42,684 bases of DNA from a virus: the IMG/VR virus record IMGVR_UViG_3300011440_000033, positions 1-42,684 of that record, one strand, 5' to 3'. Positions 822-40,390 of the stretch are shown piece after piece. Positions within the stretch are counted from its first letter, which is position 1. Every line of letters begins with the position of its first letter. The position numbers and the translations under genes were made by a program. The notes beneath the pieces are model-generated. The model was not told where the DNA came from. It did no database searches and saw only the letters and a program-made list of their open reading frames with translations.

Positions 822-1876
822 CGTTGGCCTTTCTCTGCGAAGACAGGAAGCCGCTGAACGACTCCGTTCTCAGGAGTGATGAAGAACATGGCCTGCTGTG
901 GGCGCTCGAAGCCGAATCCGCCGTCCTTGGCGTACTCGTCGTAACCCTTCAGCGAGCCGTTCACCACGAAGTCCTGGCCCCAAAGCAGTTGGTGCCAGTG
1001 TCCGATGAGCGCCAGATCGAAAGGCTTACCGACCGCCCCGTAGAAGGCGTGCCGGCGTAGGAGCCACTTCAAGAGGCTCGGATAGAGCCCGCCGACCCCG
1101 CCGGCTGAGCGGAACGAGTCGCCGTGCGAAAGCAACAAGGTGGTGTCATACACCTTCATCTGTTGCTCGGCCGAGGTGCTGATCTGGAAGGTGATGCGAG
1201 GATCGTCCCGCACCGTGTCGGCGAGCCAGTTGTAAATGATCCAAGCGTTCGAGGACTCAGCCCGCTTCTTCTTCGGCGTTTGCTTGTAGGTACGGTCGTG
1301 GTTGCCGTCCACGGTCGGTACATGGACCGCCCCGAACTCGTCAGCCAAGTACCTTAGCGCCGAGGCCAGGGCGGGCATCCAGTGGACGATGGTTGCTGGC
1401 ACCGGCGCAGCATTGGTCCGGGCCAACTCGTCGTGGATGTCGCCTGTGATGATGTCGCCGAGCAGGGGCACGATGATCCCCTGAAGTGACACCCCGTTCA
1501 CGTAGTTCTTCGCCAAGTCCGCCGCCCCGTTGACGATGCGCTCCAGCCTGCCGTGGGCTATGTCCCGGTCGTAGGCGTTTACACCGTCCATCTCGTCCAG
1601 GTCGACCACCTCGTCGAGGTGAAGGTCGCTTAGCATGAGCACTGGCGTGGCGACGTGAACTTGCTTCGACTTGGGTTTGGCGATCCAGGCCACTGGCCGA
1701 AGGTCGGCCGCACGCACGTAGGCGTATCGTTCAAGCCTGGCGTTGAGCCGCTCGACTTCCTGCTCAGAATGGCCTAGCTCACGACGAAGACGCTTGATCT
1801 CGTTCCAGCGCTCGTCAGCGGTGGCCGTGGCCGTGGCGAGAGACCGAACGGTCTTCGCCATAATGTCGTCAGTCAT
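818..1876 (-). CDS. Calcineurin-like metallophosphoesterase
   Basis: 352 aa. All metallophosphatase motifs are visible: DLH at 84-86, LLGD at 138-141, GNHD at 191-194, SHGD at 250-253 and GHWH at 292-295, binding a dinuclear metal centre. Residues 25-50 form a charged coiled coil, so the enzyme may oligomerise or act on DNA ends. I start at MTDDIM (1876), 8 nt inside the previous gene; longer in-frame extensions are Pro/Ser/Arg-rich shadow sequence. Known phage relatives include SbcD/Mre11-type nucleases and phosphodiesterases. Nuclease versus nucleotide phosphatase cannot be decided here. A GTGTAAACG element lies at codons 98-101 (GVNA). Confidence 0.9.
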   Translation of the reverse strand: MTDDIMAKTVRSLATATATADERWNEIKRLRRELGHSEQEVERLNARLERYAYVRAADLRPVAWIAKPKSKQVHVATPVLMLSDLHLDEVVDLDEMDGVNAYDRDIAHGRLERIVNGAADLAKNYVNGVSLQGIIVPLLGDIITGDIHDELARTNAAPVPATIVHWMPALASALRYLADEFGAVHVPTVDGNHDRTYKQTPKKKRAESSNAWIIYNWLADTVRDDPRITFQISTSAEQQMKVYDTTLLLSHGDSFRSAGGVGGLYPSLLKWLLRRHAFYGAVGKPFDLALIGHWHQLLWGQDFVVNGSLKGYDEYAKDGGFGFERPQQAMFFITPENGVVQRLPVFAEKGQR

Positions 1877-2783
1877 CTCCCCGCACCTTACTGCGGTCGT
1901 CGGTGCCCAGCCCACGGATGCTGAACGTGGCGAGGGCAAGGGCGTGCCAGGTGACGGCGATGATATGCCGGCTATCGGTCTCCCCGTCCCAGTCCTCTCG
2001 GTCCATGAACTGCGCCAGGTGGCGCCCGAGGGCGGCGATGGACAGGCTCCAGGGGTAGCCCTTCTCCCAGTTCCGGTCCTCGTATTTCTCGGAGCCGGCA
2101 CCGTACAACTCGGCCAACTCCCAAAGAGCGTCCGGCGGAATGAGATCGAAGCGGGCCAGCTTGGAGCCTTTCTCACCGCCGGTGTCTGGATCCGTGAACC
2201 GCACCTCGCCCGGGGCGTAGCCATCGGTCCACGTGCTGGACCAGAGGATATCTTCCTCTTGACCGGGCGGCAACGAGTTCTGCATAACCCTTAGCGCCCG
2301 AGCCTCGTACTCAGGCTGGCCGTAGAGATAAGGTGCGAGCAGGCGATCGCCTGGGCAGTAGTAGAGGACCTCCAGCCCGCACGCCTTGGCCGCAGCCAAC
2401 TCGGTCGCCACGCCCGAGGACTGCTCCCAACCGGGCAAGAGCACGACGGCATCCGACTCAGTGATCCGGGCCAGGTCCCAGCGCAGCGCCTTCTCCAGGT
2501 TGAAACGAGGCAAGCCCTCAATATCGCCCTCGTCGTAACCGGGATCATCCACCGAGACAGTGCCCGTATTGAGGTCATGCGCCGCCGGGTTATGCACGTG
2601 CCAGCCTTCGCCAACGAGGTAGTGCTGGGCCTGGAAGAACAGCGGAAAGTTGAACTCCGGGATTCCCCGCATCGGACCGGCGATGTAGCACGAGCGGCCT
2701 ACCGTAGAGCAAGACGGCTCAGGTTGGTATAGGCCGGTGTAGTACTTCACCCTGGTGCCGGAATGGGTCTCGGTACCGATCAT
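1869..2783 (-). CDS. Fusion: DUF4406/deoxyribosyltransferase-like domain + dATP/dGTP pyrophosphohydrolase-like domain
   Basis: 304 aa. Residues 31-145 carry a YIAGPMRG opening and a later DAVVLLPGWEQSSGVATELA segment, the signature of the nucleoside 2-deoxyribosyltransferase-like DUF4406 family. From about 205 on, KLARFDLIPPDAL...YGAGSEKYEDRNWEKGY...HIIAVTWHALAL matches phage dATP/dGTP diphosphohydrolase (MazG/DUF5664-like) proteins. The natural inference is nucleotide-pool remodelling: removal of a base plus hydrolysis of dNTPs. The ATG overlaps the endonuclease VII stop (ATGA). In many phages these two domains are separate genes. No adenylosuccinate-synthetase-like PurZ lies in the window, so a 2-aminoadenine genome is not supported. 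Confidence 0.85.
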   Translation of the reverse strand: MIGTETHSGTRVKYYTGLYQPEPSCSTVGRSCYIAGPMRGIPEFNFPLFFQAQHYLVGEGWHVHNPAAHDLNTGTVSVDDPGYDEGDIEGLPRFNLEKALRWDLARITESDAVVLLPGWEQSSGVATELAAAKACGLEVLYYCPGDRLLAPYLYGQPEYEARALRVMQNSLPPGQEEDILWSSTWTDGYAPGEVRFTDPDTGGEKGSKLARFDLIPPDALWELAELYGAGSEKYEDRNWEKGYPWSLSIAALGRHLAQFMDREDWDGETDSRHIIAVTWHALALATFSIRGLGTDDRSKVRGDD

Positions 2784-6204: not shown

Positions 6205-6995
6205 TGGTCTGCCTTTCTGGCCGTGGCGGCCGGTTGGGTGGGCTTGGTGTAAGCCCGGGAGATGGCCTTCTTGATGTTGGGGATGGTCGGGTTGACCATG
6301 GATGACTTCAGCACCGAGCGCCAGCGGTTGGCCGTGCGCCGAGTTGGGTCGTCAGGCAACCAAGAAAGCACACGCTGCTCGGGCTTGCCTTCTACACGAA
6401 CGATCTGATACTCGCCGTAAATGTTGGCCCAGTCTTCGACCTCCTTGCGGCTGGCTGCGTTCATGGCCGGGCCTCGCTTGTACTCGCCCTTCTGGGGGTC
6501 AGGCTGAAGCGTGTGGGCGAGGAGGATGATGTCCTTGCCCGAGCGAGCGAGGAGCAGGAGGAAGTCGTGCAGGGCCGTGGCCGCAGCCAGGTAGTCCCGC
6601 TGCTCGGCGACGCCCTGGCCGATGTTGACCATGCCGGCGCCGGGCTCCCGAGACTTCGAGGCCCAGGTCATGACCGACTGGCGAATCAGCCAGGCGTTGA
6701 GCGAGTCGACCTGGTCGATGACCCAGGTGTCACGGTCCCGGTCGTTGGACTTCATGGCGAAGTACAGCGAAGCCAGGTCGGGGTACTCGTCCGGCGTCCA
6801 CTGGAGGGCGTCAAGATCCTCCGGGACCGCCTCGCCTTCAAGGCCGAAGTTGGTGTCAACGACGAGCGGGCGACTGGCCGTCAAGGCCAGGGCTGTCTTG
6901 CCTACACCCTTCTCGGCGTAGATGCACGCTCGGATAGGAGGCCGCTTGCGGACCACAGGGGTGGGTTCGTCCCGAAGGACAGGTACTCCAGTCAT
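6201..6995 (-). CDS. RecA-like phage nucleotide-binding ATPase (AAA_24 type)
   Basis: 264 aa. Walker A is EKGVGKTA (28-35) and the Walker B-like segment is WVIDQVD (Asp94). A conserved LLAHTLQPDPQKGEYKRGP region follows, typical of the Sak4/AAA_24 family used in single-strand annealing or recombination. I start at MTGVPVLRD because this ATG overlaps the WhiB stop as ATGA; the longer version adds residues from that gene's overlap. Together with the DUF669-like protein and the Cas4-like nuclease it makes a recombination set. Confidence 0.88.
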   Translation of the reverse strand: MTGVPVLRDEPTPVVRKRPPIRACIYAEKGVGKTALALTASRPLVVDTNFGLEGEAVPEDLDALQWTPDEYPDLASLYFAMKSNDRDRDTWVIDQVDSLNAWLIRQSVMTWASKSREPGAGMVNIGQGVAEQRDYLAAATALHDFLLLLARSGKDIILLAHTLQPDPQKGEYKRGPAMNAASRKEVEDWANIYGEYQIVRVEGKPEQRVLSWLPDDPTRRTANRWRSVLKSSMVNPTIPNIKKAISRAYTKPTQPAATARKADQ

Positions 6996-7663
6996 GGATC
7001 TCCATTCGACTGACGTAGGTGGGTCGGTACCCACGATGCTACCGCCCCCGGCAGGCGCCTCCGCACGTAGTATCGAGTGTGGCCGTTGTCCCCCACCTTG
7101 CGCTCAGGCGGCCCGTGAAGATCGAGCGTGCCGTCCGCCACGAATGCGTCGAGGACAATCCGGAGCGGCCCCGGCATGCAGGGGATGGCTTCACAAACCG
7201 CTGTCTGCGACGGTACTCGACCACCCTCTGGAACGTTGACGGCGAGCCAGCGCAAGACCTTGTGAGCGAGGGTGGTGTGATGTCGGCTCCAGCGGTCGCC
7301 CTCGTCAGGGATGGGCGGTACGGAGCGGCCGTTCTGTGTGCCGGCGATGAGGTCGAGCGGGTCTGCACCTTTCAGCCCGCCACGCTTCTCAATACTCCAG
7401 CGCTGCGCAGGCGTGAGACCGCCCCGGATACCCACCCTTTCGAGAGAATCCACGGCTAGTCCTTTCTCCTCGTGAAGTGCATGATCAGCACACTCGTAAC
7501 GGACAGGACAAAGAGCGCAAACCGCTCGGGCAACAGCAACGCCGGCCGAGTTGGGGTTCCCATCGTCGTCCTCCGTGTCCTCGTAGAAGATGGCCGGCGG
7601 GGCGCCTCGACACGCTGCCCACTCCAGCCAGTCGAAGTCGTTTCGCCAGGCGTACGACCTCAC
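6992..7663 (-). CDS. WhiB-family Fe-S transcription factor fused to a C-terminal winged-helix-like domain
   Basis: 223 aa. Residues 10-90 are WhiB: WLEWAACRG (C18), then AVCALCPVRYEC (C49, C52, C58), the four cluster ligands, then VGIRGGLTPAQR in place of the usual G[VI]WGG turn. WhiB proteins are restricted to actinobacteria and their phages and bind sigma factor region 4. Most are 80-130 aa. Here about 130 extra residues follow, with a helix-turn-helix-like stretch (RVPSQTAVCEAIPCMPGPL) and a beta-wing-like end. The GTG start (AGGAAAGG upstream) overlaps the previous stop as GTGA. The position inside the replication operon is unusual for a regulator. Confidence 0.88.
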   Translation of the reverse strand: MRSYAWRNDFDWLEWAACRGAPPAIFYEDTEDDDGNPNSAGVAVARAVCALCPVRYECADHALHEEKGLAVDSLERVGIRGGLTPAQRWSIEKRGGLKGADPLDLIAGTQNGRSVPPIPDEGDRWSRHHTTLAHKVLRWLAVNVPEGGRVPSQTAVCEAIPCMPGPLRIVLDAFVADGTLDLHGPPERKVGDNGHTRYYVRRRLPGAVASWVPTHLRQSNGDP

Positions 7664-10442: not shown

Positions 10443-10458
10443 CGACTGCGTATCAGTG

Positions 10459-10530
10459 TACCCCCCGTGGGACTCGAACCCACATCCCCGGTTGTTGAGA
10501 CCGGTGGCTCTGCCGTTGGCCTAGGGGGGC
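10459..10530 (-). tRNA. tRNA with anticodon CAA (nominally Leu) but short variable loop
   Basis: The acceptor is GCCCCCC/GGGGGGT (G-U at 1:72), the D stem GGC/GCC, the anticodon stem CCGGT/ACCGG with loop CTCAACA (anticodon CAA), and a perfect 5-bp T stem GTGGG/CCCAC with TTCGAGT. The discriminator is A; CCA is not encoded. A Leu tRNA should have a long variable arm; here the variable region is only about 4-5 nt, so the amino-acid identity is uncertain. Confidence 0.8.
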
Positions 10531-24079: not shown

Positions 24080-25312
24080 TCAGAAGGTGGGTTCGGCCAC
24101 CGTTACGGTGACGTGGGCGTTGCGGACCAGCGCCTCCAGGTTGAAGTAGCTCTTGTACCTGGCCTCGATGGCATCGGAGCCGTCCAGGGCCTTGTACAGG
24201 ACCTTGCCGTCATCCTCGTCCCAGGTCCAGTCGTAGCCGATGAACCACTCCAACTCCGCCGTGGTGAGGCCGAAGATCCGAGTGGCCGGGCAGAATCGAT
24301 CGACCAGGAGCACGCCCTGGGCGACTTGCAGGCCCTTCCAGCCGGCCTTCAGGGTCATCTCCCGACCCTCGTACCGCTTCTGGGTCTGCATCTGGCTCGC
24401 CAGCTTACGCCGCTGAACCTGCTCAGAGATCCAGAGGTTCGGGCTGGAGCCGTCGCCGTCCGTCTCGACCTTCTCCTGGGCCTCCTCGAACAGGACCTCG
24501 GAGACCCCGACCGACGAGGAGCCGGCGGTCAGGCCGTTCCACACCGGGTTCGAGGCCGCCGTGATGCCGGCGTAGTTCTGGGTGCCGATCAGGAAGGGCA
24601 GGCCGTTGATCTCGTTCGAGCCCGAGGCGTAGTTACCCTGGCGGAACAGGTAATCGTCGTCAGCCGTGGCGCCGTCGTCGTCCACGGTGATGGTCGGGAC
24701 GCCGTTGGCGCCGACCGCCGTAACCACCATGGCCGCCTCGGAGATCGCACCGGTCCCTGGGGTGACGGCGTCGATGATCTCGTTGACGAAGAACGGCCTG
24801 GTGATGTTGGAAGGCGCCGTCGAACCGAAGTAGTCGACCGTGATGACGTTGGCCGCCGGGGCGCCGTTGACCTGAGCCAACGGACCGTTCGCCAGCACTG
24901 CGTTGATCGTCTGAGCGGTGTTGAACATCTGGCGGGCGAGGTCGTTCTTGACGTCCTTCTCGGCCCCCTTCAGTTCCGACTCCAAAGCCCGAAGAAAGGC
25001 GCCGGTGTCGTTACGGGTGAGGTGCTTCGCCTGGCCCGACACCTTCACGGTGTGGTACATGTAGGCGAGATCGTCACGAGGAGCGATGTACCGCTGGCGG
25101 TCCGCCGTGGGCAGGGCGGCCAGTTCGGCTCGGTTACCCGTCGAGGTCGAGCGCCCGGCGTGCACCGACCAAACCGCTTGGCGGCCGACGATGTCCTCCC
25201 GGTTGAAATGAACCTCGGTCAGAATCGGGTGGCTGTTGTTCAGGGCGTTCCGCAGTCCAGGACCGTAGTTGTCCTTCAGCGCTGCGTCGAAGAATGCGAG
25301 GGACTGGGGCAT
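24080..25312 (-). CDS. Major capsid protein
   Basis: 410 aa, directly downstream of scaffold and portal. N-terminal arm MPQSLAFFDAALKDNYGPGL; an E-loop-like region QAVWSVHAGRSTSTGNRAE; a helical spine (FLRALESELKGAEKDVKNDLARQMF); an inserted acidic beta region (ITVDDDGATADDDYLF); and a C-terminal P-domain-like part (WFIGYDWTWDEDDGKVLYKALDG). This fits an HK97-fold capsid of a short-tailed phage. The upstream sequence has no good ribosome site immediately before this ATG, but a GGGAGG-c-ATG-TAA lies 20-30 nt upstream (see findings). Confidence 0.88.
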   Translation of the reverse strand: MPQSLAFFDAALKDNYGPGLRNALNNSHPILTEVHFNREDIVGRQAVWSVHAGRSTSTGNRAELAALPTADRQRYIAPRDDLAYMYHTVKVSGQAKHLTRNDTGAFLRALESELKGAEKDVKNDLARQMFNTAQTINAVLANGPLAQVNGAPAANVITVDYFGSTAPSNITRPFFVNEIIDAVTPGTGAISEAAMVVTAVGANGVPTITVDDDGATADDDYLFRQGNYASGSNEINGLPFLIGTQNYAGITAASNPVWNGLTAGSSSVGVSEVLFEEAQEKVETDGDGSSPNLWISEQVQRRKLASQMQTQKRYEGREMTLKAGWKGLQVAQGVLLVDRFCPATRIFGLTTAELEWFIGYDWTWDEDDGKVLYKALDGSDAIEARYKSYFNLEALVRNAHVTVTVAEPTF

Positions 25313-26425: not shown

Positions 26426-28549
26426 TCAGCCGCCCATTGAGGCGGCCTGGTTATCGGCAGGAACACCAGGAACCCTACCCGGCTGCCCGGTGCCCCCAAT
26501 GCCAGCCTGATTATAGATGCCTTCCGACGTGACCGGGGATGGACCCTGGCCGCTAGCAGACATCAGAGGATCTGGCGTGGTGCCGGTCATCGGATCGGTC
26601 ATGTAAGCACCGCTGTTCTGACTCGGAGCGACCGAACCCCGAGCCGATCGCTGACGAACGGCGCCGGCCGCAGCGCCGGCCGTCTCGCCGTACGGCATCG
26701 ACGACTGCGGCATCGGAATGCCGGCCTGCGCCATGACCAGTTCCTCGTGTGCGCCTGCGTGTGCGTCAATGCGAGCCCGCACAGTCTCGGGCAGTTCCTC
26801 GTATTCCTTTGTCTTGCGGAACCGGTTGATCTGGGCCAGGTGGATGGCATGGTCGTCGAACGCCGAGATCTCACAGTCGATGCCCTGAAGGAGCATCCCC
26901 AGTTCCCGCTTCTGCTTGCGCACGTCCAGGTCGGCGTCCCGAGTGATGAAGTCGGTGCCGGGCAGATCGAGGATCTTCAAGAGATCCTGATTCGAGGGAA
27001 TGACGCCCCGGGCGTGCAACTCCAGGCCCAACTGAGCCCGAGCAGCCTTCGAGCGGGGCAGGGCCGACTCGCTGGAAACGTGGACGTCGAACTTGTTACC
27101 GACGTCAGAACCCCGATAACGGAAGACGTCAAGCGCTCCGGCATCCTCGGAGAATACCCGGACGGTGCGCTCCTCGGTCCAGAACTGGCGGGTGAGGAAC
27201 AGGACGTGCTCGCCCACCTCGGCGGTGAAGGCGGCGAGCATGGTGGCCGTGACCGCTAGCTTCGTATCGTCGGCCTCTTGCAGAGCGAGGATGGCAGCGG
27301 CCGGCGTCGAGGCTCCCGCCTGGCCGGCGCTGGCCTCGTTTACACCAGCCCGCTGACCCATCTCGGAATCGGCCCGAGCCATGACTGCTTCCTGCTGCTG
27401 CATCCAGCCGCCGTCCGGGATGAGCCACTTAGGCTCGAAGCCGGAGGGGGCGACGGGAATCATCTCGATCCGGGAGTTGACCCGCTGGGGGTCTATGGAG
27501 CCGGTCGAGTAGACCAGCTTCGGGATAAGCGTGCGTCGCATCGTGGATTCTCGGGAGCGGGCGTCGTTGTAGTCCGCCTGCATTGGGATCAGGTCATCGA
27601 CCCAGGTGCGCCCGTGGGGGGTGCCGAGCGGCGGCAGCCAGTGCATGGGCACGAAGGGCAGCCGCTTGTGGTCGTACGGGAAGTTCTTGCGAGACTCCAG
27701 GATGGTCTCGCCGGCCCAGGTACAAACAAGCCCCTTCTTGGCCGCACGGCCGGGGAGCATCCAAATCTGGTGGACGGAGACCAACTGCTCTGAATCGGAA
27801 TGGTCCTGGCGGTCGGCCATCTGAAGGACGTCGTCCACGAGGGAGCGGCTAGTGGAGTCACCCTCCAGGAGAACACCCCATTCCTCCCAAACGGCTTCTC
27901 GGGACATGACGACGGTGCGCACGGCCCAACGAGCCTTGCTGTGCTTCCGCCCTCCAGGGTCGACAGCCAATTCGTTGGCCGGCACGATCTCCAAATCGAC
28001 CTCGCCCATATGCAGAGCACGCTCGTCCTCCTCGTCGGCCTCGGCCAGGAGGTCGCCGGCATCGGGATCCCAGAAGATGTGAGCGTAGGACCAACCGATG
28101 GCGGCAGGCCAGAACAGGAACTCGGTGAGCCACGGCCGCCAACGAAGGCGGGCCGTCTCGTGCGCCAAGATGCGGGTGGCGACCCTGGCCGCCGAGATAT
28201 CGCTGTCGTCATCGGACACCGGCCGGGCCTCAGGCACGGGGGCGCTCTTGGTCAGCTTGGCGACGATGCGCTCCACCAGACCGCCGATCTTGTTGGCAGT
28301 GATGCGGATGGGGGCGTTGGGGTTGCCGGCCTTGACTGCCGGCTTACGGAAGCGGTTGGCCTTGTTGTCCCAGGTGAGCCACTGGTGACCGAGCACGAAC
28401 GCCAGGTTCAACTTCATGGCGTACTCGGGCATGGGCGCACGCCCGGCCTTGCGCTTCTCCTCCAGCCAGGTAATCAGCGCCTTCTCATCGCTCGGGACGA
28501 CGAACTCGTTCTTGCCCGTCGTGGAACGCAGGAGGTCAAACAGGGCCAT
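26426..28549 (-). CDS. Portal protein
   Basis: 707 aa. Recognisable portal layout: a helical clip/wing domain with IRITANKIGGLVERIVAKLTKSAP; PFVPMHWLPPLGTPHGRTW; SRESTMRRTLIPKLVYSTGSID; a stem helix (PAAAILALQEADDTKLAVTATML); and a Pro/Gly/Met-rich disordered C-terminus (from about 600). Large size and the connector-type neighbours favour a P22-like podovirus portal. A GTGTAAACG element is embedded (GVNE) near residue 402. Confidence 0.88.
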   Translation of the reverse strand: MALFDLLRSTTGKNEFVVPSDEKALITWLEEKRKAGRAPMPEYAMKLNLAFVLGHQWLTWDNKANRFRKPAVKAGNPNAPIRITANKIGGLVERIVAKLTKSAPVPEARPVSDDDSDISAARVATRILAHETARLRWRPWLTEFLFWPAAIGWSYAHIFWDPDAGDLLAEADEEDERALHMGEVDLEIVPANELAVDPGGRKHSKARWAVRTVVMSREAVWEEWGVLLEGDSTSRSLVDDVLQMADRQDHSDSEQLVSVHQIWMLPGRAAKKGLVCTWAGETILESRKNFPYDHKRLPFVPMHWLPPLGTPHGRTWVDDLIPMQADYNDARSRESTMRRTLIPKLVYSTGSIDPQRVNSRIEMIPVAPSGFEPKWLIPDGGWMQQQEAVMARADSEMGQRAGVNEASAGQAGASTPAAAILALQEADDTKLAVTATMLAAFTAEVGEHVLFLTRQFWTEERTVRVFSEDAGALDVFRYRGSDVGNKFDVHVSSESALPRSKAARAQLGLELHARGVIPSNQDLLKILDLPGTDFITRDADLDVRKQKRELGMLLQGIDCEISAFDDHAIHLAQINRFRKTKEYEELPETVRARIDAHAGAHEELVMAQAGIPMPQSSMPYGETAGAAAGAVRQRSARGSVAPSQNSGAYMTDPMTGTTPDPLMSASGQGPSPVTSEGIYNQAGIGGTGQPGRVPGVPADNQAASMGG

Positions 28550-29188: not shown

Positions 29189-30832
29189 TTAGAGTTGATC
29201 GGGGACGCCTGTGACGGCGTCGACGGGCTCTGCGTTCCTCTGCCGGTGAAGTCTCTCCCACATGGCGTCGGGGCTGTGATCGACAGCGTATCCCTGTTCG
29301 ACGACCCAAGAGCCTTCAGGCTGAGCGTTGGGGTCCGGGAGGTCCTCGGAGTAGGCGTAGGCGTACATCACGGCGTCGGCTCGGTCAGGGCTGTCGAGGC
29401 CCCGCTTGCGCATCTCCGTCTTGGTCTCGATACGGATGGCGCCCTGCGGCGTGATCGAATAGGTCATCTGGGTCAACTGGGCATCCAACTTCGGGTCCCG
29501 CACCATCATCGAAATCTTGCCCCGCTCGAAACGCCGACGTAGCGCCCACCACCAACCGGAACGCTGGTTGAGATAATGGTCTACGACCTTCTTACCTCCC
29601 CGAAAGCCGATGACCTGCGAGGTGGAGAGCATGTGTCCTTGCTTGACAGCCCAACCGTGCAGGCGCTCGAAATCACCGATGGCGCCCGAACCGACGCCGT
29701 CAGCGTCGTAGATGATGTAGGTCGGCCGATAGCGGACGACGAGCGAAGGTAGCGAGGCATTGGGGTCGACCTGTTGGTTCTCGTGGACGAACGACGCCGG
29801 ATCGCCCAAGATCAGGTGGTCGGTCCGGCCGGCGGGAAACGCCTTCAAGGCGAGCAGCGTGTCGCCTTGTCGTACGGCCACGACCGACTCAGACGTACCG
29901 TACGGAGCAAGGTCCACGCCCAGGGCGAAGATCGAGGAAACGTCAGAGTCCCGCTCCTTGGCGGCGTCAACCCAGGCAGGGGCGATCAGGTTGTCCTCGC
30001 CCATGTCCCAGAACTGGGCCAGCACACGGGTGGTCCACTCGTACGAACCCGGCCCCATGCCTTGCGCCTCCAGGTCCATGAGGAACTCGGGCGTGGTGAG
30101 GTTAGAGCCCTCGGGGACGTGCTCGCCGGTGAAGTGCGGCGTGTCGAAGGCCGTGATGCGGATGACGTTTACACGGGGCGACCTAGTCATTTGGGCGGCG
30201 TAGGTCTCGGGCGTGGTCGGGTTGAACACGAGCAGTAGTCGAGTGTCGCCAGTTGCCATGAGGCTGGTGATACCTCTCGCCACGTCCTCGGAGACGGAGG
30301 TGGCTTCGTCGCCGATGATCAGCTTGTGGGCGGCGTGGTAGCCCTGCATCCCCTCCTCCTTCGTGGCGACCTGGCCACGAAGGAAGTGGTTGCCGGCGGA
30401 GTCCTCCAGAAAGGTCTCGACGGGCGCAAGACGTCCCGGAATTTCTACCCCTCTCTCTGCGGCTTCACCGATTGCGAGCCTTATTTCGCCCCACAAGTTG
30501 TCCCGAAGGTGGGTTTCTTTCGAGGAGGTGGTCAGCACCTTGGACCCACGACAACCGCCCTTGGTGCCGGTGGGGTCGCAGGACACGCACGGCGTGCCGG
30601 GGGTGTAGGCGTCGTAGAAGGCCAGGGCGAGGCGGGCTGCCAGGTGGGTCTTACCCGAGGCGTTGCACGACGGCACGGCCACCCGGGCTCGACGAGTGGA
30701 CATAGCGGTAGCAATCTGCTGCTGAATCGACCACAGTTCCCGGCCAGTGGCGGCCTCAACCCAGGATCCCAGGTCGAGCATGCCGAGTTGACGGAGGCGG
30801 TCTCGGGTGGAAACCGTTTCAACGGCGGTCAT
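29189..30832 (-). CDS. terL: Terminase large subunit
   Basis: 547 aa. ATPase: Walker A SCNASGKT (55-62), Walker B LIIGDEAT (D175, E176), coupling motif LLVFNPTTPET. RNase H-like nuclease: VDLAPYG (D307), IIYDADGVG (D376/D378) and DSPDRADAVM (D483/D486). It packages DNA through the portal. An extra Cys-bearing loop PCVSCDPTGTKGGCRG (82-94) sits just after the Walker A helix, which is not usual. The ATG overlaps the fibre gene stop (ATGA). A GTGTAAACG element is embedded at RVNV. Confidence 0.93.
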   Translation of the reverse strand: MTAVETVSTRDRLRQLGMLDLGSWVEAATGRELWSIQQQIATAMSTRRARVAVPSCNASGKTHLAARLALAFYDAYTPGTPCVSCDPTGTKGGCRGSKVLTTSSKETHLRDNLWGEIRLAIGEAAERGVEIPGRLAPVETFLEDSAGNHFLRGQVATKEEGMQGYHAAHKLIIGDEATSVSEDVARGITSLMATGDTRLLLVFNPTTPETYAAQMTRSPRVNVIRITAFDTPHFTGEHVPEGSNLTTPEFLMDLEAQGMGPGSYEWTTRVLAQFWDMGEDNLIAPAWVDAAKERDSDVSSIFALGVDLAPYGTSESVVAVRQGDTLLALKAFPAGRTDHLILGDPASFVHENQQVDPNASLPSLVVRYRPTYIIYDADGVGSGAIGDFERLHGWAVKQGHMLSTSQVIGFRGGKKVVDHYLNQRSGWWWALRRRFERGKISMMVRDPKLDAQLTQMTYSITPQGAIRIETKTEMRKRGLDSPDRADAVMYAYAYSEDLPDPNAQPEGSWVVEQGYAVDHSPDAMWERLHRQRNAEPVDAVTGVPDQL

Positions 30833-36806: not shown

Positions 36807-37169
36807 TCAGGACCCTTCGGTGACCCTGCTCGGCCAGGCGAGGTGGCTCAGCAGACACTTCGAGATGTTCAGCCAGACTTGGTGATCCAGCCAATCTCCC
36901 AGCCCTGGATCCAAATGTGCAAACGCCCATTCCCAGGCGAGGGCTTCATCGGCCAGGCTGCCGGCCTCGACGTCGTATTCGTGGAGAATGTGTCCGAACT
37001 CGTGCAATCCGACGACGTACTTCGTGGCGGTGCCCGGCCGGGGAATCCACACCATCGGAGCGTGGCCGTTGCAGGCAGCGGCCTCGTCGATAGTGCCGAC
37101 CCACTCGATCTCGATGCCTTCGGCAAGCGACTGGAGGTGGGTTACGGCCGTGGCGAGGGGGAACCTCAC
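36807..37169 (-). CDS. Small HExxH zinc metalloprotease-like protein
   Basis: 120 aa. HEFGHILHEYD (H56, E57, H60, with H63/E64 as possible further ligands) is a zincin active-site motif. An N-terminal strand-rich part (EGIEIEWVGTIDEAAAC) and a C-terminal helix complete a minimal metallopeptidase fold. The GTG start overlaps the upstream stop as GTGA. It could process virion precursors or degrade host wall or surface protein; substrate unknown. It is distinct from the HEGAH motif in the giant protein. Confidence 0.7.
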   Translation of the reverse strand: MRFPLATAVTHLQSLAEGIEIEWVGTIDEAAACNGHAPMVWIPRPGTATKYVVGLHEFGHILHEYDVEAGSLADEALAWEWAFAHLDPGLGDWLDHQVWLNISKCLLSHLAWPSRVTEGS

Positions 37170-38452: not shown

Positions 38453-38588
38453 CGTCATCCTCCAGTTGGTTGGGGTCATCGAACAGGCTACCGGCTGGAC
38501 GGAAGCTATCCCCGCACTCGCAATCTCGGGTGGCTTCGCCGCAACCTTGGCACACCTGGACCACGGGACGACGACGCTCAGCCGGCAT
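38439..38588 (-). CDS. 49-aa zinc-ribbon protein with poly-Asp tail
   Basis: MPAERRRPVVQ, then CQGCGEATRDCECGD supplies four Cys (CxxC...CxC), followed by a linker and EDDDDDA. The ATG overlaps the previous stop region by 11 nt. A longer frame upstream is shadow sequence. A zinc knuckle with an acidic tail suggests protein-protein contact; function unknown. It lies two genes downstream of the Pup homologue. Confidence 0.68.
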   Translation of the reverse strand: MPAERRRPVVQVCQGCGEATRDCECGDSFRPAGSLFDDPNQLEDDDDDA

Positions 38589-38847
38589 CCTCATCGTCCA
38601 GGTATGACAACAGGGCCAGGCGTACGTCCAGCACCACGTCCAGGACCTCATCGACACCGACGAAGCTGCGGCCGGCGAAGTCCCGGATGGCCTGGTCGAC
38701 GACAGCAAGGGCCTTGGCGGTGTCTGGGCTGGCCCAGGTGACCGAAGTGAAGATCTTGTCGTCGGGAGTGGTACGAGACCGAACGTGGTTGCGGTTGGCG
38801 CTGGCGATGGCGCTCTGAAAGCGGGCGATCGGGGTGTACTCGGACAC
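38578..38847 (-). CDS. 89-aa hypothetical protein next to the Pup gene
   Basis: The start is GTG at 38847 (MSEYTPIARFQSAIASANRN), with AAAGGTGG about 8 nt upstream; an alternative GTG at 38859 lacks a spaced ribosome site. Compact helix/strand content: TTPDDKIFTSVTWASPDTAK, VVDQAIRDFAGRSFVGVDE. Acidic C-terminus YLDDEDAG. Its start nearly abuts the Pup stop (38849), so the two are co-translated. No family recognised; it is a candidate functional partner of Pup by position only. Confidence 0.65.
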   Translation of the reverse strand: MSEYTPIARFQSAIASANRNHVRSRTTPDDKIFTSVTWASPDTAKALAVVDQAIRDFAGRSFVGVDEVLDVVLDVRLALLSYLDDEDAG

Positions 38848-38848
38848 G

Positions 38849-39064
38849 TTACTCGCCACCTTTCTGGACGTAGTTCTTAACGAACTCCTCAGCGTTGACG
38901 ATGAGAACCTCGTCGATCTCGGCCAGGAGATCGTCCAATTCGGCGAGATGGTCCACGTCCTGGGCGGGCGCTGAAGCCGGTGCGCTTCCATGCTCGCCTC
39001 CAGCATCATCGCCCTGTCGCTCCACTCGTCCTCGGTCACGGTGCACCCTCGCTTGTTCGGCCAT
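38849..39064 (-). CDS. pup: Prokaryotic ubiquitin-like protein Pup homologue, C-terminal GGE
   Basis: 71 aa. Residues 1-38 are polar and disordered. Residues 40-60 form the Pup helix (AELDDLLAEIDEVLIVNAEE), which in cellular Pup coils with the proteasomal ATPase Mpa/ARC. The C-terminus FVKNYVQKGGE matches the cellular consensus ending YVQKGG[Q/E]. Pup is ligated through its terminal Glu to substrate lysines by PafA; a Gln ending needs deamidation by Dop, a Glu ending does not. No PafA, Dop or Mpa is in the window, so host enzymes would be used. The reading frame of the first 30 residues is questionable: a GTG at 39039 in another frame has a better ribosome site and codon use. Confidence 0.88.
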   Translation of the reverse strand: MAEQARVHRDRGRVERQGDDAGGEHGSAPASAPAQDVDHLAELDDLLAEIDEVLIVNAEEFVKNYVQKGGE

Positions 39065-39076
39065 GATGGATACAGC

Positions 39077-40390
39077 CTACAGGGTCAGTTCGATGGTGAC
39101 TTCGGCGGGGTCGATCCACCGCAGTCGCTTGGTGCCGGGGACGAGTTCTATCTCCTTGCGGGCAGTCAGTTCCTTGATGGCGTGCGGCAGCACGGACATC
39201 TGGCCGGCGGTGAGGATGGCCTGGAACCGACCCACAGCCAGGCCGTCGTCGCCGTGCCGTTGAAGGATCTGGACCACCCTCTGCTCGACGAACTGCTGGT
39301 AGTCCTTGCGATCGTCACGGGCGACAGCCTGGATTCTCGCTCGGTCGGCGTCACGCTGAAGGGTCTTGCGGTGCTCGGACTCCTCCTGGGCCTGGACCTG
39401 CTTGCGCACCCAACCCCTGACCAGCGTGGAGGTCTTCAGCAGGGTGGCAGAATGCCGCCAGTCGCTTTCGGTGACCTTGATGCGGCCGTGCAACAGGGCG
39501 AGGAGGGCGGCCTGACGCATGGCGATCAGGGTGGCGTGGGCGTCGAACGGGTCGATGATCCGGTCGCCGAACCAGATCTCCTCGCTCCGCTCCTCGATGA
39601 CGGTGCGCACTGACGAGGGGAACTCGATCTCGCCGGTGCGGTCCCAGTAGGGACGAATCTGGAGGGCGCCCGGCCAGCCTTTCTTGCGGGCTGCACGAAC
39701 TTCGGGCCGGACGTCCGGGCCGGGGCCGGCGGAGGCCCACACGAAGCGCTGCGGGGTGCCTCCGCCGACCTGGCCGAGGAGGTGGCCGGCGTGCTCGGGC
39801 TGGTAGCCGACGACCATGCCGATTGAATAGGAGCGGGGCGGGAGCATGCGGGAGGTGTCACGGTGGGCGTTGCGCTGGCCGAGGACACCGCCGGAGAAAG
39901 CGGAACGTATGACCGTGTCGAGCGTGGTGCCGTCACGGGCGCCGAGCCGCTTGAAGACCTCGCCTTCGTCGACGTAGAGGAACAGGTTGTGGTGCTCCTG
40001 GACCTTCTGCTTGGTGTCCGGGTCCTTCTCGAAGAACGACTCGATCAGACCCTCGCCGGTGCCGACCGGGATGTCGTCCCGATCCCACAGGTGCTCGGGA
40101 GCGGGGAGCAGCATGCGGGCGATGCCGGCACCGGTGGACTTGCCGCCGCCGGAGGGGGCGATCACGGCCACGAAGTAGTTCAGCGGGGACTCCGGGCCGT
40201 TGATGCCGGGCAGGACCAGGTCGGCGGCTGTGAAGGCACTGAGGCGGGCCAGGACGGAGTGGAGGACGGCGTCGGGGGCGGTGCGCTTGCTCAGGGCGCC
40301 CTGGCGTAGATGCTTCAGGGCGGGGCTGTCGTAGAAGGTCGGCGGCAGGGTCGGGATGGGGGCAGTTTCGGGCAGGTCGTCGAGATGCAT
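39077..40390 (-). CDS. P-loop ATPase, probable replicative helicase/DUF3987-like
   Basis: 437 aa. Walker A is IAPSGGGKST (77-86) and Walker B is LFLYVDEGE (D141, E142). Then comes a sensor-like SYSIGMVVGYQPEHAG and a C-terminal winged-helix-like region (GDDGLAVGRFQAILTAGQMS). This layout matches phage/plasmid DUF3987-type or primase-associated helicases that work with stand-alone prim-pol proteins, such as the one at 4983-5621. It is the first gene after the promoter at 40432-40460 and is followed by pup (12 bp gap). A GGAGG ribosome site lies about 10 nt before the ATG. Confidence 0.78.
   Translation of the reverse strand: MHLDDLPETAPIPTLPPTFYDSPALKHLRQGALSKRTAPDAVLHSVLARLSAFTAADLVLPGINGPESPLNYFVAVIAPSGGGKSTGAGIARMLLPAPEHLWDRDDIPVGTGEGLIESFFEKDPDTKQKVQEHHNLFLYVDEGEVFKRLGARDGTTLDTVIRSAFSGGVLGQRNAHRDTSRMLPPRSYSIGMVVGYQPEHAGHLLGQVGGGTPQRFVWASAGPGPDVRPEVRAARKKGWPGALQIRPYWDRTGEIEFPSSVRTVIEERSEEIWFGDRIIDPFDAHATLIAMRQAALLALLHGRIKVTESDWRHSATLLKTSTLVRGWVRKQVQAQEESEHRKTLQRDADRARIQAVARDDRKDYQQFVEQRVVQILQRHGDDGLAVGRFQAILTAGQMSVLPHAIKELTARKEIELVPGTKRLRWIDPAEVTIELTL

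Follow-up and report, generated by a model that had tools for sequence, protein, structure and literature searches.

A prokaryotic ubiquitin-like protein encoded by a phage without a ligase recurs in unrelated phages and may act on host pupylation

A gene for a prokaryotic ubiquitin-like protein (Pup) in a virus raises the question of what a phage could do with a protein tag when it carries none of the enzymes that attach the tag or act on it. In cells, Pup is joined via its terminal glutamate by PafA (PMC8223512), Mpa threads its disordered N-terminus (PMC8755798), and a Pup that already ends in glutamate skips deamidation by Dop (PMC12288473). The gene considered here lies in IMG/VR record IMGVR_UViG_3300011440_000033; by “the window” we mean this whole virus record, the 42,684 bases that were analyzed, which is classed as “linear” and is perhaps incomplete.

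In the open-access literature searched, we found no paper discussing a phage Pup, in agreement with an earlier sequence-only reading of this DNA, which knew of no described function for one. The two reviews consulted make no mention of phages (PMC8223512, PMC12288473), and the only prior trace of a phage Pup that we found is a database annotation in Streptomyces phage Dagobah. The Pup family itself is known; its viral, ligase-less, and recurrent use appears to be undescribed.

Identity and gene neighborhood of the phage Pup

The open reading frame (ORF) occupies exactly 38849-39064 on the minus strand (the strand was missing from the sequence-only reading) and is intact, with an ATG start, a TAA stop, and 71 codons. 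Its G+C content by codon position is 0.82, 0.37, and 0.66, as is typical of a coding frame when the genome is rich in G+C. The translated protein is MAEQARVHRDRGRVERQGDDAGGEHGSAPASAPAQDVDHLAELDDLLAEIDEVLIVNAEEFVKNYVQKGGE, and its C-terminal end is EEFVKNYVQKGGE, with QKGGE as the last residues. The features that the argument needs are as follows:

38849..39064, minus strand: phage-encoded Pup, 71 aa (ORF, PF05639/TIGR03687, PDB match, AlphaFold2)
38849..38941, minus strand: C-terminal Pup module, residues 42-71 (ELDDLLAEIDEVLIVNAEEFVKNYVQKGGE), including the GGE ligation end (TIGR03687)
39077..40390, minus strand: DUF3987 / DNA polymerase-primase-type protein, 437 aa (PF13148, 31.3 bits; phrog_28894, E=1.6e-41)
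38578..38847, minus strand: 89-aa protein of unknown function (sequence; no Pfam match)
29189..30832, minus strand: terminase large subunit (phrog_2, E=6e-18; relatives in actinophages)
26426..28549, minus strand: P22-like portal protein (PF16510, 91.7 bits; phrog_156)
24080..25312, minus strand: major head protein, with relatives in Arthrobacter and Cellulosimicrobium phages (phrog_14242, E=8.9e-42)
6992..7663, minus strand: WhiB-type regulator (PF02467, 46.1 bits)

The sequence-only reading had assigned the protein to the Pup family and named an HMM search as the way to check this. That search bears the assignment out: PF05639 matches with E=1e-14 and 55.6 bits against a gathering cut-off of 27, and TIGR03687 matches residues 42-71 with 53.9 bits against a cut-off of 41.45. 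M. tuberculosis Pup chains in the PDB match with E=3e-8, and PHROGs version 4 holds no family for this protein. Since the PF05639, TIGR03687, and PDB matches lie far above expectation, chance similarity to Pup is ruled out, and we regard the identification as practically certain.

As a cellular example of the family (PF05639/TIGR03687), we take M. tuberculosis Rv2111c. The window Pup resembles cellular actinomycetotal Pups in its length, the length of its N-terminal segment, the helix motif LDDLLxEIDEVL, the NAEEFV motif, and the YVQKGGE end. Its residues 44-71 align end to end with the Dop-bound Pup chains 7oy3/7oxy, and the C-terminal module, judged by this alignment, matches the part that folds into two helices on PafA/Dop. 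In the Dop-bound state, these helices span residues 44-53 and 57-64 of a 71-residue Acidothermus protein (PMC8599861), a numbering that fits the window Pup. At the conserved PafA/Dop-binding positions of the two-helix region, the window Pup shares D44, L47, I50, D51, V53, L54, N57, A58, E60, F61, V62, Q67, G69, and G70 with viral and cellular Pups, despite its unusual A48, I55, and V56. These three lie in helix 1 and the interhelix turn and, unlike in cellular Pup, replace residues that are near-fixed or typical there. A further difference from cellular Pup is that no lysine precedes K63, i.e., there is none ahead of the last ten residues; among the 53 viral Pups measured, only the window Pup and its identical copy have this property.

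In the AlphaFold2 model, residues 35-67 form a confidently predicted helix, with block means of 92 and 94 across residues 41-60; pLDDT falls below 50 over residues 17-28, and residues 3-18 form a low-confidence helix. By this prediction, the N-terminus may be disordered, and such a helix behind a poorly predicted N-terminal part would be in keeping with Pup. The predicted Mpa-binding helix may be shortened by prolines 29 and 33. The GGE end noted in the sequence-only reading is real, so deamidation by Dop should be unneeded. The protein is quite likely to be ligatable by a host PafA.

With respect to its neighbors, the sequence-only reading placed the gene beside two unknown genes, which needs correction: only the 89-aa downstream gene is of unknown function, and the upstream neighbor is the primase/helicase-like DUF3987 gene. 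The latter runs in the same direction and its stop codon lies 12 nt before the Pup ATG; the GTG start of the downstream gene lies 1 nt past the Pup stop. Because of this spacing, Pup appears to belong fully to a phage transcription unit, and it is likely to be translationally coupled to the 89-aa gene. Further window genes encode a Sak4-like protein, a DNA helicase, a PD-(D/E)XK nuclease, and endonuclease VII. The WhiB regulator and the relatives among actinophages point to a phage of an actinobacterial host. The only relative of this phage found is an IMG/VR contig of 9,544 nt (L002), which is identical to the window with zero mismatches; it is the same phage and no independent case.

Three other features of the window were observed. 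A few genes downstream of Pup (36807-37169, minus strand) lies a 120-aa protein with a zinc-protease-like motif, GLHEFGHILHE, and no Pfam or PHROG match; small HExxH proteins were found at only two further Pup loci. A single protein at 1869-2783 (minus strand) fuses a DUF4406 domain with a dATP/dGTP diphosphohydrolase N-terminal domain, and a tRNA-Leu (CAA) gene lies at 10458-10530 (minus strand).

Recurrence in unrelated phages without the rest of the pathway

Scanning IMG/VR at the protein level yielded 6 Pup loci, and an alignment scan 15. The Pup tail written as a degenerate DNA pattern (F-V-x-x-[YF]-[VI]-Q-x-G-G-[EQ]-stop) matched 65 stretches, 64 of which end a Pup ORF. Adding the protein-search loci, the window, and the isolated Streptomyces phage Dagobah gives 69 viral loci with 48 distinct C-terminal tails. 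When loci sharing at least two genes are linked, the 69 fall into 19 groups, a number that short contigs may inflate and in which single linkage joins loosely related phages. All ten other Pups tested (nine viral, one plasmid) pass the PF05639 cut-off. In INPHARED, the full-length query gave no match, probably owing to low-complexity masking, and the C-terminal 30 residues do match.

The genes near Pup are those of phages. Checked against PHROGs, the genes of ten contig groups and of the window comprise terminases, portals, a T4-type head protein (E=5e-162), a UvsY-like protein (E=1e-34), a UvsW-type helicase, and endolysins, among others. Counting the Dagobah group and every group in which a viral gene was verified in this way covers about 59 of the 69 loci, those outside being L107/L162, L109/L118, L111, L112/L116, L130, L132, and L133. 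Pup carriage recurs across many unrelated phages. For the window, and for the loci taken together, the verified phage genes and the lack of proteasome-locus genes led us to reject host contamination. One candidate was discarded: INPHARED entry MT835496.1 (L098) is labelled “Bacteriophage sp.” but appears to be bacterial, its Pup belonging to a cellular pup locus with cellular genes as neighbors. Separately, a viral contig of 295,848 bases (L133) carries a Pup ending in YIQRGGQ near a single-strand-binding-like protein.

None of the 69 viral loci contains Mpa, Dop, proteasome, or PafA genes, as judged by searches with Dop, Prc, PafA, and neighboring proteins taken from six pup loci of cells. 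The sole exceptions are two weak matches between one further flanking ORF of the cellular loci and a UvsW-type helicase region. For the window, the sequence-only reading had stated that no ligase or proteasome gene is present, and tblastn agrees in finding no Mpa, Dop, Prc, or PafA in this linear, perhaps incomplete record. A scan of IMG/VR with a PafA/Dop alignment returned 46 candidate stretches and no relatives among them. Instead of the complete system (PafA, Dop, Mpa, PrcBA), the window phage carries the tag only, unlike cellular Pup with its Mpa-Dop-Pup-PrcBA-PafA locus. On genome contigs, a motif search placed cellular Pups next to Dop- and Prc-like genes in most loci where the contig allows. 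Pup was found in 320 of the 395 Actinomycetes genomes searched, and as a single copy in every Pup-positive genome listed, so that extra copies in prophages were not seen among them.

The position of Pup differs from one phage type to another. In T4-like phages, it lies between uvsY and uvsW, which abut in distant relatives. In L008, the gene order is portal, Pup, scaffold, and head protein, and in L006 and L009 it is portal region, Pup, protease, and head protein. Several groups have the terminase a few genes downstream of Pup, and in L013, L015, L147, L149, and L157 Pup lies just upstream of it; in the Dagobah group, Pup sits between endolysin and primase, and elsewhere it also follows tail genes. 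Because these positions vary among unrelated genomes, repeated gain of Pup by phages is suggested. The best tree of viral and cellular Pups has nine label changes, which, with 45 columns and few supported branches, is compatible with a single origin; for the number of acquisitions, we go no further than the 19 gene-content groups.

Two of these phage types allow a closer comparison with the window. Dagobah (MT711977), a phage in isolation, also has an orphan Pup (QMP84414.1; PF05639, 47.8 bits), which its record annotates as “ubiquitin-like protein Pup”, and no ligase among the annotated genes of a 40-kb stretch. Unlike the window Pup, its Pup has 78 aa, an extra helical segment, and an FVQVGGE end in which the motif lysine is lost, and it lies between endolysin and primase-polymerase genes. 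The Dagobah genome paper does not mention Pup (PMC7650747). The T4-like contigs L007, L012, L113, and L163 share with the window an orphan Pup that ends in GGE and closely resembles it in the C-terminal module, but belong to an unrelated phage type, in which Pup lies between uvsY and uvsW and is under strong purifying selection.

Tail conservation, motif lysine, and selection

The Gly-Gly-Glu/Gln end and the key tail residues are nearly always kept in viral Pups. No distinct viral tail departs from F, V, Q, and the last Gly, and all end in E (26) or Q (22). As the Glu:Gln ratio is similar in cells and viruses (26:22 in each distinct-tail set), the Glu end is not a special viral trait, and about half of the viral Pups, those with a Gln end, would first need host Dop. 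Two near-identical phage Pups, in L147 and L149, end one in GGQ and the other in GGE, i.e., a natural switch in Dop dependence. In L006 (6582-6857), the Pup between the portal-region genes and a protease gene ends in QAQGQ rather than QKGGQ and may not be ligatable.

The motif lysine, three residues from the end and equivalent to K61 of M. tuberculosis, is present in 74 of 75 distinct cellular tails and absent from 16 of 47 viral ones, a difference whose small p-value is indicative only, as the tails are related by descent. About a third of the distinct viral tails thus have R, A, Q, L, S, or V at this position; the window Pup retains the lysine (K68). In M. smegmatis, di-Pup formation requires this residue, K61, which also serves as the chief site in the poly-pupylation of IdeR (PMC4783102). 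Since this lysine is lost, some viral Pups may be unable to form Pup-Pup chains.

For the last 30 codons, the T4-like group gave dN/dS values of 0.01-0.13, the terminase-HNH group 0.02-0.09, and the Dagobah-like group 0.10 to about 1, with some dS values saturated. The C-terminal half is therefore under strong purifying selection in the first two groups, and constraint in the Dagobah-like group is weak.

Possible roles of a phage Pup

We assign a probability of roughly 0.5 to the reading that phage Pup raises or redirects pupylation in the host, serving host-protein turnover. On this reading, the gene is a true Pup that a phage of an actinobacterium has acquired. Upon infection, it would make extra Pup, already glutamate-ended, which host PafA would join to lysines of cell proteins; host Mpa and the proteasome would then be able to degrade the tagged proteins. 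Consequently, flux through a tag-limited host pathway would be raised or redirected by the phage. The most likely benefit would be faster host-protein turnover during virion building, which would free amino acids and remove inhibitory proteins. Pup levels in starvation depend on tag recycling, and proteasomal amino-acid recycling matters for survival (PMC12288473). Supplying Pup but no ligase would suit a host that has enough ligase and too little tag; increased or redirected pupylation is therefore favored.

Several observations count against this reading, namely the Gln-ended viral Pups, the weak constraint in the Dagobah group, the A48, I55, and V56 substitutions, and prolines 29 and 33. 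In addition, pupylation may be dispensable in the host lineage of the window phage. A published hypothesis points in the opposite direction: the low lysine content of mycobacteriophage proteins may help them to evade pupylation (PMC10665810). In the window, the lysine content is 1.8-3.8% in head and packaging proteins and 0.7% in one tail protein, values from which we draw no claim.

If phage proteins do avoid pupylation, as is thought (PMC10665810), inhibition of the pathway would benefit the phage, and a flood of Pup could occupy PafA, Dop, and Mpa such that pupylation and degradation of phage proteins by the host are slowed. The PafA/Dop-binding residues are the best-conserved part of viral Pups, and the IMG/VR scan found no viral ligase, both of which would suit such saturation. 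A dedicated inhibitor, however, would be expected to drop the ligatable end or the N-terminal threader, and loss of GG[E/Q] or of a long N-terminus is rare among viral Pups; moreover, surplus ligatable Pup should normally raise conjugates. We consider saturation unlikely. A pure decoy role, and the pure competitor role that the sequence-only reading had raised, are not favored because the ligatable end, the helix, and the long N-terminal segment are all kept.

Somewhat less probable still is tagging directed at the virion, in which Pup on scaffold, portal, or maturation protease would time removal or quality control in head assembly. The placement of Pup within head and packaging cassettes in several groups (L006, L008, and L009, and just upstream of the terminase in L013, L015, L147, L149, and L157) speaks for it. 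Against it, placement varies (uvsY/uvsW, endolysin/primase, after tail genes), the window Pup follows a primase-like gene, and the broad specificity of host PafA implies no target restriction.

That Pup is a passenger, a host gene caught by chance or by mobile DNA with no selected phage role, seems to us very doubtful. The gene is short, donors are common (Pup being in 320/395 Actinomycetes genomes), and an orphan Pup also occurs on a Streptomyces plasmid next to an integrase, but Pup is intact in 69 loci of 19 groups, purifying selection is strong in two groups, and host proteasome genes never adjoin viral Pups. An assembly artefact, i.e., bacterial DNA misassigned to a viral contig, has a precedent in MT835496 of INPHARED, with its Pup on an apparent bacterial contig, and is refuted for the window by its gene neighborhood and otherwise hardly credible, given that phage genes surround the Pup of the window, the 9.5-kb L002 matches without mismatch, Dagobah is an isolated, fully sequenced phage, and no locus contains proteasome-locus genes.

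Beyond increased or redirected pupylation in a single host, we tentatively propose that actinobacterial viruses repeatedly took Pup as an effector, a host-ligated modifier that would reprogram the tagging of cell or virion proteins, with variants tuned, for example, by loss of the motif lysine. Eukaryotic viruses exploit ubiquitin, and we have so far found no description of an equivalent viral takeover of a bacterial tag; phage hijacking of bacterial tagging looks widespread yet unstudied. Bil systems, which are host-encoded and anti-phage, use a beta-grasp ubiquitin-like protein and E1/E2-type enzymes. Hor et al. (2024) reportedly present Bil as bacterial ubiquitin-like conjugation against phages. 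The phage Pup is, like the Bil tag, a small protein tag at the phage-host interface; unlike that beta-grasp, host-encoded tag, it is helical/disordered and phage-encoded.

The recurrence of Pup in unrelated phages without a ligase makes phage-host conflict or cooperation over the actinobacterial proteasome directly testable. Dagobah grows on Streptomyces coelicolor (PMC7650747), for which the literature describes ARC, dop, pup, and proteasome mutants (PMC8223512).

Outside the viruses, an orphan Pup was observed on a 676-kb linear plasmid of Streptomyces anthocyanicus (NZ_CP109572.1; L207:8851-9069), near an integrase and transposases. It matches PF05639 with 59.1 bits and has an FVQKGGQ end, and a similar match lies on a second plasmid, NZ_CP109229.1.
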